A program made the position numbers and the translations under genes. 33,464 bases of DNA from Candidatus Shapirobacteria bacterium (GTDB lineage: Bacteria > Patescibacteriota > Microgenomatia > UBA12405), in the NCBI GenBank assembly GCA_018062705.1, contig JAGORQ010000012.1:1-33464 (forward strand). The letters run 5' to 3'. The stretch's first letter is position 1. Each line of letters opens with the position of its first letter. The notes beneath the pieces are model-generated. The model did no database searches and had not been told where the DNA came from. It saw nothing but the letters and a program-made list of their open reading frames with translations. Of this stretch, positions 4,372 to 33,464 are shown in pieces.

Positions 4372-4410
4372 GTTCGCTAAAGCGAACCGTCTCCCTTTAA
4401 CAAGGGAGAC
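4372..4410. repeat. paired hairpin repeat upstream of gyrB
   Basis: Two adjacent perfect hairpins: GTTCGC-TAAA-GCGAAC (4372-4387) and GTCTCCCTT-TAAC-AAGGGAGAC (4389-4410). The second is a member of the CCCTTTGACAAGGG family found elsewhere in the window; the flank AATCCCTCT (4363) is also shared with the copy at 12.93 kb. On the minus strand both would be in the gyrB leader, just before the GAGGGA ribosome-binding sequence. They are not followed by a T run on the minus strand, so a terminator for the upstream methyltransferase gene is unlikely. Confidence 0.7.
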
Positions 4411-4518
4411 AAGAGTTTTTTTAAGTTTTTATTTAGCAATACATTCTACCAAATACCAATAGCTTTACAATGGGCAAAAGATGTGGAAAGATAGGTGTAA
4501 TTTAATTGAGTTTCGGTT

Positions 4519-5315: not shown

Positions 5316-5984
5316 GTGAGATTTATTGATCGATATCGAATTGAATCGACTCGTAAATTAGGTTGGAATTATTCAGATGATGGAATCTACTTTATTACCA
5401 TTTGCACTTATGGAAAGAATAATTTCTTTGGAAAAATATCAGATGGTGAAATGGTTTTATCAAACAAGGGTAATGTGGTTAAGGAAGAAATGTTAAAGAC
5501 TTTTGATTTGAGAAAATATTTAAATTTAATTGAATGGGTAATAATGCCAAATCATGTTCATTTGTTGTTTTCAATTAAGAGCCTAGGTATTGGTGATGAG
5601 GTTGTTAATCCCCATATTGCAGATATAAATTCCATAGAGACAGGTTTTAATTTCGTAGAGACATGTTTTAATTCCGTAGAGACGCCAGGCCTGGCGTCTC
5701 TACCTAGAAGTACCAAATGTCAAAACGTAATCAGTGGTCATCGGAAATACCCGAACTTTTACAAAAAGATGGGTAACAAGTCAAAACAAATTATTCCAGC
5801 AACAATTCAGCAGTTTAAAGCATCAATCAAGAGACGATTGAAAAAGCAGAATGAATTTTTCGGTTGGCAACCAGGATTTTATGATGAGATTGTTAAAGAT
5901 AAGAAACAATTGGAAACCATTAGATATTACATTAGAAACAATGTCAGGAATTGGGAGAAGGATGGGATGTGGAGCACGGGCTAA
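5316..5984 (+). CDS. REP-associated tyrosine transposase (RAYT, Y1/HUH family)
   Basis: 222 residues from a GTG start. The HUH metal-binding motif is MPNHVHLLF (His80, His82), the nucleophile region IRYYIRNNVRNW gives Tyr204 or Tyr205, and WQPGFYDEIVKD is the usual segment between them. These enzymes nick single-stranded DNA at hairpins; the E. coli relative binds REP hairpins with a GTAG tetranucleotide at the 5' foot. The gene is flanked upstream by two palindromes of the GTAGAGACG family and contains one perfect copy (5676-5703) plus two partial ones as an in-frame 21-bp tandem repeat, giving a low-complexity insertion (residues about 105-133) between the HUH motif and the tyrosine. All catalytic residues remain, so it may be active. 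It is convergent with the DHH gene. Confidence 0.9.
   Translation: MRFIDRYRIESTRKLGWNYSDDGIYFITICTYGKNNFFGKISDGEMVLSNKGNVVKEEMLKTFDLRKYLNLIEWVIMPNHVHLLFSIKSLGIGDEVVNPHIADINSIETGFNFVETCFNSVETPGLASLPRSTKCQNVISGHRKYPNFYKKMGNKSKQIIPATIQQFKASIKRRLKKQNEFFGWQPGFYDEIVKDKKQLETIRYYIRNNVRNWEKDGMWSTG
5628..5690 (+). repeat. 21-bp in-frame tandem repeat in RAYT gene
   Basis: Three units of 21 bases beginning AATTCCATAGAGACAGG, AATTTCGTAGAGACATG and AATTCCGTAGAGACGCC. They encode NSIETGF, NFVETCF, NSVETPG. Each unit contains the left foot (G/A)TAGAGAC of the palindrome, and the third merges into the full palindrome. Confidence 0.85.
5676..5703. repeat. REP-like palindrome inside RAYT coding sequence
   Basis: Perfect 28-bp palindrome whose left half is GTAGAGACGCCAGG. 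It begins with GTAG and ends with CTAC, is read in frame within the RAYT gene, and encodes the end of SVETPGLASLP. Confidence 0.9.
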
Positions 5985-12943: not shown

Positions 12944-12963
12944 TCTCCCTTTGACAAGGGAGA
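12944..12963. repeat. CCCTTTGACAAGGG hairpin repeat
   Basis: TCTCCCTT-TGAC-AAGGGAGA, a perfect 8-bp stem with a TGAC loop, preceded by AATCCCTCT as at the gyrB copy. It lies between two divergent transcription units, and its TTGACA is correctly spaced to act as the -35 of the plus-strand one. Confidence 0.8.
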
Positions 12964-29321: not shown

Positions 29322-29327
29322 AATCTA
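29322..29327 (-). promoter_or_regulatory. -10 box inside ligA end
   Basis: TAGATT on the minus strand, five bases (GATTC) before the ATG at 29316; TTGTCA from the hairpin repeat (29346-29351) lies 18 bases upstream. It could give the phosphoribosyltransferase-like gene its own leaderless mRNA. Confidence 0.4.
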
Positions 29328-31352
29328 CCCCCTAGCCCCCTCCTTTGACAAGGAGGGGGAACTTAATATTTTATTAAATTGTTTTTCATCTATTATTTTT
29401 ATGTTAAGTTTTTTGGCAGTCACGAATTTGGAAGAGTTTGAATCAACCTCATTGGTAATTAGATAGCTGGTGTTTTTGGAAACGGTTGAGGCGACTTTAC
29501 CACCATTATCAATAATTAATTTTTCTAAATCTTTGCGGGGAAGGGAAAGATCACCCGTAATGGCGAAAGAGAGTCCTGATAAAGATTTAAGATTTAAGAT
29601 ATAAGATTTACGAATAACTACATTTGAAATTATTGATTCAATCCAGGGGCGGCGGAGAGAAATACCGTCGATGATTTTTTGGGCTAGGGTGATTTGAAAA
29701 CCTTTGAGAGTCAGTAAATTGGTGGTAGTTAAATTGAGAATTTTTTCGGGCGTGTCAAATCCCCCGTCAATAACTTGTTGTACCCGTTTGGCGGAGAAAT
29801 TTGGAATAATTGAAGCGTCGAAGGCTTCGACTAGACTTAACTCGCGCTTTTTATTGATTTGATGCAAAATATTTTTGGCCGATTTTTCACCGAGATTGTC
29901 GAGAGTGGAGATATCGTCAATGGTTAGTTTGTAAAAATCTCCTGGGACAACAACTTTACCAGCGGTATAGAGTTTACGAATGGTTTTGTCGGATAACCCA
30001 AGAAATCCCAGTGTGTCGCAAAACAGCCGGAGAGAACCAATTATTTGATCGAGACATTGAGGTGTGTTGGGGCAACGGAGAAATTTATCTTCGATTATTA
30101 ACTTGGTATTGCAAGTGGGACAGTGGGTGGGAATTTTTGTGTGGCCGAGGTTGACCTTGGTAATTACTTTTTCGATGTGAGGAATGACATCACCGCGACG
30201 GCTAATTTGAATAATATCACCGATATTGAGATCTTTTTCTTTGACTAAGGCGTAATTAGCCAGCGAGGCAAAAGTAACCATAGCACCTGAGAGCTCCAAT
30301 GGTTCAACTTCGGCTACTGGTGTTACCAGGCCCATAGGACCGACCTGCCAAACAACTGATTTGATAACCGTCTGGTTGGATTGTGAAGGGAATTTGTAGG
30401 CAACTTGATATTTGGGACGATTATTTTTGGTGCCCAGTTTTTTAGATAAACTTAGATCGTTTATTTTTATAACCAGACCGTCGATTTCAAAAGGATAGGA
30501 TAAGCGCTTGGAGACAAAAAATTCTTGATAGATTTTTTCAATATCATCAAACGAATTGCAGAGAGTTGATTCGACGGGGGTGAAGCCAAGAGATGTTAAA
30601 TAATCAATTTTTTGGTTTTCTGTAGAGACGTAGCGCGCTACGTCTCTACGACTATCAAAAAAAATATCAACTGCATAAAGCGAGCAATATTCAGCATATT
30701 TTGAATCTAGCCGTTGGGATAAGCCGGAAGCGGCGTTACGGGGGTTAGAATATTTTTCTTCAGAAGTTTTATTTAATTTTTCAAAATCCTTTTTGGTAAC
30801 TACAATTTCACAACGAACCGAACCGGTAAATTTTTTTGGATTGTTAATATAGTTTTGCATCTTTACCACATTTTGGGTGATAATATCGCCGACTTCACCA
30901 TCACCTCGGGTAATAGCATTAACTATTTGACCACTTCGATATTCAATTTCTAGGGAAATACCGTCGCATTTTGGTTGGACAATCCACCCCCAATCCAATC
31001 CCCCCTCAGTCCCCCCTTTGACAAGGGGGGAGGAAGAATTTTTTAATAAATCCTTATTTTTCAGCTCGAAATAATGAACTAGGTCGTTAAGATTGGTGAC
31101 TTTGTTTTGCGAGCCCATGGGCATGAGATGTTTTTTCTTCTCAAAACCGGTGTCGAAGTTGGGGTGACCAACCTTGGTAAAAATCCGATGATAAGGCAAT
31201 TTTTTCTTCAAGATTTCTTCGAGAGTGTCATAAGTGTGGTCGTCCATAATGGGTTTACTGCCAGTGTAGTAAGCCTTTTTAGCCTCAATTAACAGCTCAC
31301 CAAGTTCTTCGGGGGAAATTTTTTGGAGATTCAGAGAATCGAGAGTAACCAT
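29325..31352 (-). CDS. ligA: NAD-dependent DNA ligase
   Basis: 675 residues, full length. Domain Ia (YYTGSKPIMDDHTYD), adenylation domain with catalytic Lys128 in QPKCDG, GDGEVGD, the SNPRNAASG motif (near 202-210), OB fold, zinc finger CPTC (Cys411, Cys414) plus CPNTPQC, helix-hairpin-helix repeats and a C-terminal BRCT (about 594-665). It seals nicks in replication and repair. The gene carries in-frame repeats of three families: a hairpin repeat encoding part of SSPLVKGGTEGG before Lys128, a perfect REP-like palindrome encoding residues 235-244, and heptamers before the BRCT; another hairpin encodes the terminal SPSLSKEGARG. All key motifs survive, so it should be active. TAAAAT ends six bases before the ATG. 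Confidence 0.96.
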   Translation of the reverse strand: MVTLDSLNLQKISPEELGELLIEAKKAYYTGSKPIMDDHTYDTLEEILKKKLPYHRIFTKVGHPNFDTGFEKKKHLMPMGSQNKVTNLNDLVHYFELKNKDLLKNSSSPLVKGGTEGGLDWGWIVQPKCDGISLEIEYRSGQIVNAITRGDGEVGDIITQNVVKMQNYINNPKKFTGSVRCEIVVTKKDFEKLNKTSEEKYSNPRNAASGLSQRLDSKYAEYCSLYAVDIFFDSRRDVARYVSTENQKIDYLTSLGFTPVESTLCNSFDDIEKIYQEFFVSKRLSYPFEIDGLVIKINDLSLSKKLGTKNNRPKYQVAYKFPSQSNQTVIKSVVWQVGPMGLVTPVAEVEPLELSGAMVTFASLANYALVKEKDLNIGDIIQISRRGDVIPHIEKVITKVNLGHTKIPTHCPTCNTKLIIEDKFLRCPNTPQCLDQIIGSLRLFCDTLGFLGLSDKTIRKLYTAGKVVVPGDFYKLTIDDISTLDNLGEKSAKNILHQINKKRELSLVEAFDASIIPNFSAKRVQQVIDGGFDTPEKILNLTTTNLLTLKGFQITLAQKIIDGISLRRPWIESIISNVVIRKSYILNLKSLSGLSFAITGDLSLPRKDLEKLIIDNGGKVASTVSKNTSYLITNEVDSNSSKFVTAKKLNIKIIDEKQFNKILSSPSLSKEGARG
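29336..29359. repeat. hairpin repeat forming the ligA 3' end
   Basis: CCCCCTCCTT-TGAC-AAGGAGGGGG, a perfect 10-bp stem with TGAC loop, preceded by CTAGCC. It supplies the codons of the ligase C-terminus after the BRCT domain. Confidence 0.85.
29583..29610. repeat. heptamer tandem repeat (4 x 7) in ligA
   Basis: AGATTTA, AGATTTA, AGATATA, AGATTTA. It encodes part of SYILNLKSL (residues about 581-590), the linker between the helix-hairpin-helix region and the BRCT domain. Confidence 0.85.
30622..30649. repeat. REP-like palindrome inside ligA
   Basis: Perfect 28-bp palindrome with left half GTAGAGACGTAGCG. In frame it encodes RRDVARYVST (residues 235-244), in a loop of the adenylation domain where other ligases have a variable sequence. 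Confidence 0.92.
31011..31030. repeat. hairpin repeat inside ligA
   Basis: CCCCCCTT-TGAC-AAGGGGGG, a perfect 8-bp stem. With its flanks (AATCCACCCCCAATCC) it encodes SSSPLVKGGTEGGLDWG (residues about 106-122), an apparent insertion between the helical domain and the strand carrying the catalytic lysine. Confidence 0.85.
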
Positions 31353-32959: not shown

Positions 32960-33017
32960 GGGGATTAAATCCCCTGTCTCGACCTGCGGTCGATCCACCC
33001 CCTTTGACGAAAGGGGG
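32960..33017. repeat. three consecutive hairpins before DUF559 gene
   Basis: GGGGATT-A-AATCCCC (32960-32974), TCGACC-TGC-GGTCGA (32979-32993) and CCCCCTTT-GACG-AAAGGGGG (32998-33005 with 33010-33017). The third belongs to the CCCTTTGACAAGGG family with a GACG loop, and is part of a 32-base sequence (32990-33021) repeated in inverse orientation at 33427-33458. Confidence 0.8.
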
Positions 33018-33020
33018 AGC

Positions 33021-33026
33021 TATAAT
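33021..33026 (+). promoter_or_regulatory. -10 box of leaderless promoter, DUF559 gene
   Basis: Consensus TATAAT six bases before the GTG at 33033. The TTGACG of the adjacent hairpin is only 11 bases upstream of it, too near for a standard -35, but is 17 bases from the weaker overlapping hexamer TATTGT (33027-33032). Confidence 0.55.
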
Positions 33027-33032
33027 TATTGT

Positions 33033-33464
33033 GTGAAATATACTGCACCTGAAGAGGCTCGAACTCAGGTGGGAAACTTAAGGTATTTAGAAGAATTGCG
33101 TTTGTTGTCAAAAAGACAAAGAAACAAATCTACATTAGGAGAAATTATCTTCTGGCAAAAAATAAAGGGTGACGCGCTAGGATATCGTTTTTTGAGACAA
33201 AAGCCTGTGGGTAGATTTATTGCCGACTTCTATTGTTCCAAATTAACTTTAGTTATTGAAATTGATGGTGAATATCACAAAAGAACTTTAGAGAGAGACA
33301 AGGGTAGAGACTTATACTTTGTACAGAGAGGTATAAATACTGTAAGGTTCGATAATCAATTTGTTTTGGATAATACTGGTGAGGCAGTTAACCAACTAAG
33401 AACAATAATAACAACTCGAGAAAAAGAGCTCTCCCTTTCGTCAAAGGGAGATGTTCGACGAATG
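33033..33464 (+). CDS. DUF559 / Vsr-like endonuclease-domain protein (3' end beyond window)
   Basis: 144 codons from the GTG at 33033, open to the window edge. The fold signature of DUF559 is clear: STLGEIIFWQKIKGDALGYRF, then LRQKPVGRFIADFYCSKLTLVIEIDGEYH with the PD-(D/E)xK acidic residues (Asp in ADFYC, Glu in IEIDG), and FVQRGINTVRFDN. Members are predicted nucleases related to very-short-patch repair enzymes; the substrate is unknown. The C-terminal codons (ELSLSSKGDVRRM) come from a hairpin repeat, the inverted partner of one just upstream of the start. This bracketing suggests a mobile gene. Confidence 0.85.
   Translation, partial: MKYTAPEEARTQVGNLRYLEELRLLSKRQRNKSTLGEIIFWQKIKGDALGYRFLRQKPVGRFIADFYCSKLTLVIEIDGEYHKRTLERDKGRDLYFVQRGINTVRFDNQFVLDNTGEAVNQLRTIITTREKELSLSSKGDVRRM
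33427..33458. repeat. inverted copy of the 32-bp hairpin element
   Basis: Contains CTCCCTTT-CGTC-AAAGGGAG (33431-33450). Read on the minus strand it matches 32990-33021 at 27 of 32 positions, both running from TCGA to GAGCT. One stem pair differs by a compensatory C-G to T-A change. It lies inside the 3' end of the DUF559 reading frame. Confidence 0.8.

Follow-up and report, generated by a model that had tools for sequence, protein, structure and literature searches.

A DUF559 nuclease gene between inverted hairpin units: a probable REPtron-like mobile element and a possible source of BoxC-type repeats

The unit at the end of the contig

Why does a nuclease gene stand between two hairpin repeats in inverted orientation, and do gene and repeat form one mobile unit? 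The question is raised by the end of the 33,464-nt stretch analysed here (the window, which is an entire contig, C21, of a Candidatus Shapirobacteria bacterium), where the original prediction saw an autonomous element, composed of a DUF559 gene and its flanking hairpins, together with non-autonomous relatives scattered along the same contig. The 32-mers at 32990-33021 and 33427-33458 are, as predicted, inverted copies of each other (27 of 32 positions identical) that have CCCTTTGACGAAAGGG in common and differ by one compensatory stem change (CCCCC/GGGGG vs. CTCCC/GGGAG). Allowing up to three mismatches, CCCTTTGACGAAAGGG is matched three times in the window vs. 0.28 times expected, a number reached in none of 100 shuffles. 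The 32-mers are, however, not the full ends of the predicted element but the inner halves of longer units with two hairpins each, which run, from outside to inside, from AAATCCC- through a variable hairpin to a TTTGAC hairpin (Table 1). The contig ends 6 nt past the right 32-mer, and the outer part of the right unit (hairpin 1 and the AAAATCCC end) is found in another contig, C22, the end of which duplicates the final stretch of the window; this continuation was read by eye, an exact-overlap join being blocked by the differing last two bases of C22. RNAalifold provided no consensus structure for the aligned units, probably because their stems vary in length.

Only the DUF559 gene and its TATAAT lie between the 32-mers, as had been proposed, but the right hairpin falls within the reading frame: the right unit encodes the last residues of the protein, and the stop codon is located just past this unit in C22. 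No -35 box was seen at normal spacing from the TATAAT, the TTGACG of the hairpin being merely 11 nt upstream. The protein belongs to PF04480 (81 bits vs. a curated cut-off of 20.6), its sole Pfam match, with no sign of an HUH Y1 tyrosine transposase in the gene, and its catalytic residues are conserved, i.e., E, D, ExDGxxH, D, and R are invariant or nearly so in an alignment of 21 sequences. It matches 3hrl (E 2e-33) and, by profile, 3r3p, a "Mobile intron protein" (E 1e-5), which relates it to the EDxHD nucleases; DUF559/YcjD has been described as Vsr-like (PMC1189080) and termed EDxHD (PMC9403480). The gene downstream of the right unit, in C22, appears to be holB (DNA polymerase III delta' subunit), a name given from its sequence and not from a family search.

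Table 1. Features of the DUF559 locus and of the solo hairpin units in the window.
Feature	Position	Strand	Basis
Left unit; outside to inside AAATCCCC, hairpin 1, hairpin 2	32967..33020 (start ~32967)	+	Sequence; aligned units of relatives share the architecture
Hairpin 1 of left unit, variable, TCGACCTGCGGTCGA	32979-32993	+	Sequence
Hairpin 2 of left unit, CCCCCTTTGACGAAAGGGGG	32998-33017	+	Sequence
TATAAT, candidate -10 box of the DUF559 gene	33021..33026	+	Sequence only
DUF559 (PF04480) nuclease gene, GTG start, open at contig end	33033..33464	+	81 bits to PF04480
DUF559 domain with E, D, ExDGxxH, D, R	33096..33404	+	21-sequence alignment
Right unit, inverted copy of left unit	33427..33464	-	Sequence; runs past contig end
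Hairpin 2 of right unit	33431-33450	-	Sequence
Solo hairpin unit, TTTAAC replacing TTTGAC	4389..4411		Sequence
Solo hairpin unit, AATCCCTCTAAATCTCCCTTTGACAAGGGAGA	12944..12963		Same type as one unit at the DUF559 gene of contig C15
Solo hairpin unit, 3' end of ligA	29336..29357		Sequence
Solo unit, in frame within ligA (position 31014)	31011..31030		Sequence

Four solo hairpins with a TGAC loop had been predicted elsewhere in the window; those at 12944, 29336, and 31011 fit the description, whereas the one at 4389 has TTTAAC. The LigA loop that holds the in-frame unit (ligA occupies 29325-31352) also carries units in five relatives (G007, G010, G014, G017, and G031), and no target duplication was found at these insertions in the window or in the relatives. 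In four other genomes (G008, G011, G024, and G032), an unrelated palindrome occupies the same loop (AAG.NVDMRRISYV). Across the 1.07 Mb genome (50 contigs), all three DUF559 genes are bracketed by inverted units, which match within a locus (e.g., 41 nt at 95%) and differ between loci, and there are 33 CCCTT(T)GAC..AGGG hairpins, most of them away from DUF559 genes, vs. none for the reversed control pattern.

Bracketing of DUF559 genes in other genomes

In relatives, matching hairpin units in inverted orientation, not unrelated sequence, flank the DUF559 genes. Almost every full DUF559 gene of the host family has such units, which are absent at L051 and L052, both weak DUF559-like matches within longer open frames. 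For the wider comparison, loci were collected by protein match, disregarding their flanks, and compared with shifted control windows of the same shape from the same DNA; the broad genome scan used a closer alignment of six proteins since the 21-sequence alignment was too diverse. All 40 loci of the phylum entered the inverted-repeat score test, with a median of 37.5 vs. 19 in 3671 shifted windows and 29 loci above the 99th percentile of the controls, and 57 loci in named genomes of many other bacterial phyla (counted on loci free of N; the flanks of L163 contain N) had a median of 52 vs. 21. A pyrimidine/purine hairpin was present on both sides of the gene at 32/33 loci of the phylum vs. 8/1815 control windows, a count that leaves out five hand-picked long open frames (L120, L131, L134, L135, and L136) and two loci near contig ends (L147 and L148) and retains L155, also a long frame; the corresponding numbers for the other bacteria were 49/57 vs. 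9/2360. Bracketing is thus commoner than expected, given that 0.4% of control windows show it. In about one in seven loci of the broad set, at least one side lacks a hairpin; DUF559 domains within long proteins are mostly unbracketed.

BoxC/triplex repeats, known since the 1990s, have been linked to genome instability. Beyond the lineage of the window, the units at DUF559 genes read CCCTCTCC-loop-GGAGAGGG-TTA-GGGTGAGGG, which would be what is known as the BoxC/PIT/intrastrand triplex motif (Holder et al. 2015, PMC4666352). The two have in common the occurrence as solos and inverted pairs and, apparently, the three pyrimidine/purine arms, and the form of these repeats is that of the units at most DUF559 genes outside the lineage: the three-arm form stands on both sides of 70-75% of the loci there vs. 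0.1% of controls. In contrast, the units of the window represent an A/T-shifted variant: their loop is TTTGAC, they have an additional hairpin, their third arm is just AATCCCC, and they do not fit the strict TMECO consensus CCCTCNCCC-N3-6-GGGNGAGGG-N3-GGGNGAGGG. The repeats also differ in having been described without an associated mobility gene; the authors of the 2015 study never found one near them (PMC4666352). E. coli K-12 has five sites with inverted BoxC pairs that lack a gene (PMC4666352), and the two pairs inspected are oriented as are most units at DUF559 genes. BoxC pairs of MG1655 are missing from some E. coli strains, and none of these presence/absence sites had clean ends, the differing stretch exceeding the units and showing no clean target duplication. 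The E. coli DUF559 gene, ycjD, carries BoxC-type sequence solely on the 3' side, is matched in 5313/5426 genomes, and adjoins sapF where annotated; hence, it looks fixed or domesticated. No paper joining BoxC/PIT with YcjD/DUF559 turned up in the literature searched, outside which lie most subscription journals and all preprints, and we provisionally regard the link as new.

The units also follow the nuclease that they flank. On average, the two ends of one locus are more alike than ends taken from different loci, and unit similarity co-varies with nuclease identity (Mantel r 0.465, P 5e-5; units cut out by hand), including among pairs from different genera only (r 0.358, P 5e-5), with genus alone explaining little of unit similarity (r 0.12). 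Among genomes of the host family, the median number of hairpins is 8 where DUF559 is present vs. 0 (range 0-2) where it is not (P 3e-5; P 0.002 after subtracting two hairpins per gene), P values that are indicative since closely related genomes are not independent. At the phylum level, a DUF559 match is found in 22/26 genomes with TTAGGG-type units vs. 101/380 overall; that is, four genomes have such units and no detected DUF559. As an observation from another group, the DUF559 gene of L159 (Sinorhizobium meliloti CP090106) has nearly identical inverted ends of 114 nt, and this unit is found in many Rhizobiaceae records; a search for an empty counterpart of this insertion yielded none, its flank being covered by no other record.

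Gain and loss at orthologous sites

The stretch separating the Fic gene from holB (the Fic-holB gap), which holds the unit of the window, was compared in 30 genomes of the host family. Eleven of them have little or nothing in this gap (about 20-50 nt); the gap contains a solo unit in one (G023), an inverted pair without a gene in three (G007, G016, and G019), and the full arrangement of unit, DUF559 gene, and unit in six, the window included (G000, G014, G017, G018, G021, and G011, the last with a broken gene); the remaining gaps hold other sequence or were not scorable. Hence, gene and both units are present or absent jointly, and the whole unit is present in some genomes and absent from others at orthologous sites, as is the case for transposable elements; the solo unit and the gene-less pairs in this very gap support the predicted reading of an element with non-autonomous relatives. 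The DUF559 genes of this gap do not form one group, their gene tree requiring five changes, at least three of which are forced by well-supported branches. Since the genes come from several DUF559 lineages, insertion has recurred and different elements probably entered the same gap, the direction (gain or loss) being read from the gene tree and from the empty gap of most relatives. The orthologous comparison proposed earlier yielded loci with and without the unit but neither exact ends nor a clean target-site duplication, the relatives compared being too divergent, and no near-identical pair of genomes with vs. without the full gene-bearing unit was found among those compared here.

Elsewhere, two Deinococcus cassettes, with proteins 87% identical, occupy different gaps of one hpa operon, and in Legionella, segments holding a transposase and DUF559 have been reported to be recombination hotspots (PMC12308824). 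Two further observations concern individual loci. At L045 (G011), where the DUF559 gene has two stops, a newer unit on the upstream side starts directly behind the CCCTTG of an older unit's hairpin loop, as though it had been inserted into that loop. The Fic-holB gap of L091 (G008) contains a gene that, by eye, resembles GIY-YIG genes and is flanked by copies of another repeat, ACTTCGTTCAGAATGACAA; gene and repeat may represent a parallel nuclease-repeat unit.

A possible mechanism and its rivals

We favor the hypothesis, to which we assign a probability of about 0.7, that the unit-DUF559-unit arrangement is a REPtron-like mobile element with a PD-(D/E)XK nuclease as its enzyme and BoxC-type repeats as its non-autonomous copies. 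Such an element would be about 0.5 kb long, with a Vsr-like/EDxHD PD-(D/E)XK nuclease as its only gene and inverted copies of the hairpin repeat as its ends, and the gene-less inverted pairs and solo units would be its non-autonomous derivatives. The nuclease itself would do the moving: it may recognise the end units folded in single-stranded DNA, either as hairpins or by alternative arm pairing (triplex), and nick or cut there, after which replication or repair might copy or paste the element or a single unit into new intergenic sites, in the manner of homing nucleases. The element would thus work like a REPtron (RAYT plus REPs) with an unrelated enzyme. In either system, one nuclease gene is set between palindromic units in inverted orientation, and there are scattered solo units as well as inverted pairs that lack a gene (REPINs in the case of the GTAG REPs); the two differ in that the DUF559 enzyme is Vsr-like and not an HUH/Y1 transposase. 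Insertion sequences with MITEs similarly combine an autonomous copy with inverted ends and gene-less derivatives, whereas the DUF559 element has no DDE, HUH, serine, or tyrosine recombinase and no target duplication was found at it.

Alternatively, DUF559 might cut at or near existing units and be copied in by repair, that is, spread onto pre-existing repeats as a homing gene and not generate them. The relationship to EDxHD homing nucleases (the 3r3p match; PMC9403480), the newer unit inside the older loop at L045, and the several DUF559 lineages at one site are all consistent with this scenario, and EDxHD/Vsr-like homing endonucleases such as I-Bth0305I (3r3p) share related sequence and motif, and probably selfish gene spread, with DUF559. 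However, gene and both units are jointly absent in many relatives, whose Fic-holB gap lacks any unit, the two ends of a locus match better than ends of different loci on average, and the DUF559 element is intergenic and repeat-bracketed, with no intron or intein host. We consider homing onto pre-existing repeats unlikely.

It is also conceivable that nothing moves and that the hairpins simply serve a defence-type nuclease gene as ordinary transcription terminators or insulators, given that the units are strong hairpins, some of them followed by T runs, and sit tightly at the gene ends. However, other small genes in these loci are rarely bracketed (a score of at least 30 in 3.5% of small neighbouring ORFs vs. 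58% for DUF559). Further, units also occur solo, inside ligA, and as gene-less inverted pairs at an orthologous site, their sequence tracks the nuclease clade across genera, and, as reported by Holder et al. 2015 (PMC4666352), PIT elements had shown no terminator activity in earlier work, all of which makes the terminator explanation improbable to us.

Finally, that the genome's own RAYT-like tyrosine transposases move the repeats, with DUF559 as a passenger, seems very improbable, even though RAYTs have been proposed to move GTAG REPs (PMC3733652) and three RAYT-like genes are present (L054, L055, and L056, the last in the window at 5484-5579 as a match to RAYT-like Y1 transposase below the Pfam cut-off), because all three are flanked by other palindromes, ending in CTAC/GTAG (GAGACGCC..GGCGTCTCTAC), and it is DUF559 presence that predicts unit number and nuclease clade that predicts unit type. 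The GTAG tag found at these RAYT-like genes is absent from the DUF559 units, which therefore constitute a separate system.

Returning to the mobile-element hypothesis, DUF559/YcjD would, beyond the lineage of the window, be the missing mobility enzyme of the BoxC/PIT/intrastrand-triplex repeats. We see about even chances for this broader proposal, namely that there is a bacteria-wide class of minimal transposable elements that encode nothing but a Vsr-like PD-(D/E)XK nuclease, which acts on repeat ends folded into hairpins or triplexes, that this class is the source of the BoxC/PIT/triplex repeats of hundreds of bacterial genomes, E. coli K-12 with its 23 copies among them, and that YcjD is the E. 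coli enzyme or a domesticated remnant of it. If true, a nuclease bracketed by its own BoxC/triplex repeats across bacteria would explain how these repeats spread, would provide a function for DUF559, a large family of "unknown function", and would mean that a second class of enzymes, beside the HUH transposases, runs a REP-like system. The DUF559 package would then represent an overlooked kind of jumping DNA, which may explain long-known repeats that have had no known mover.
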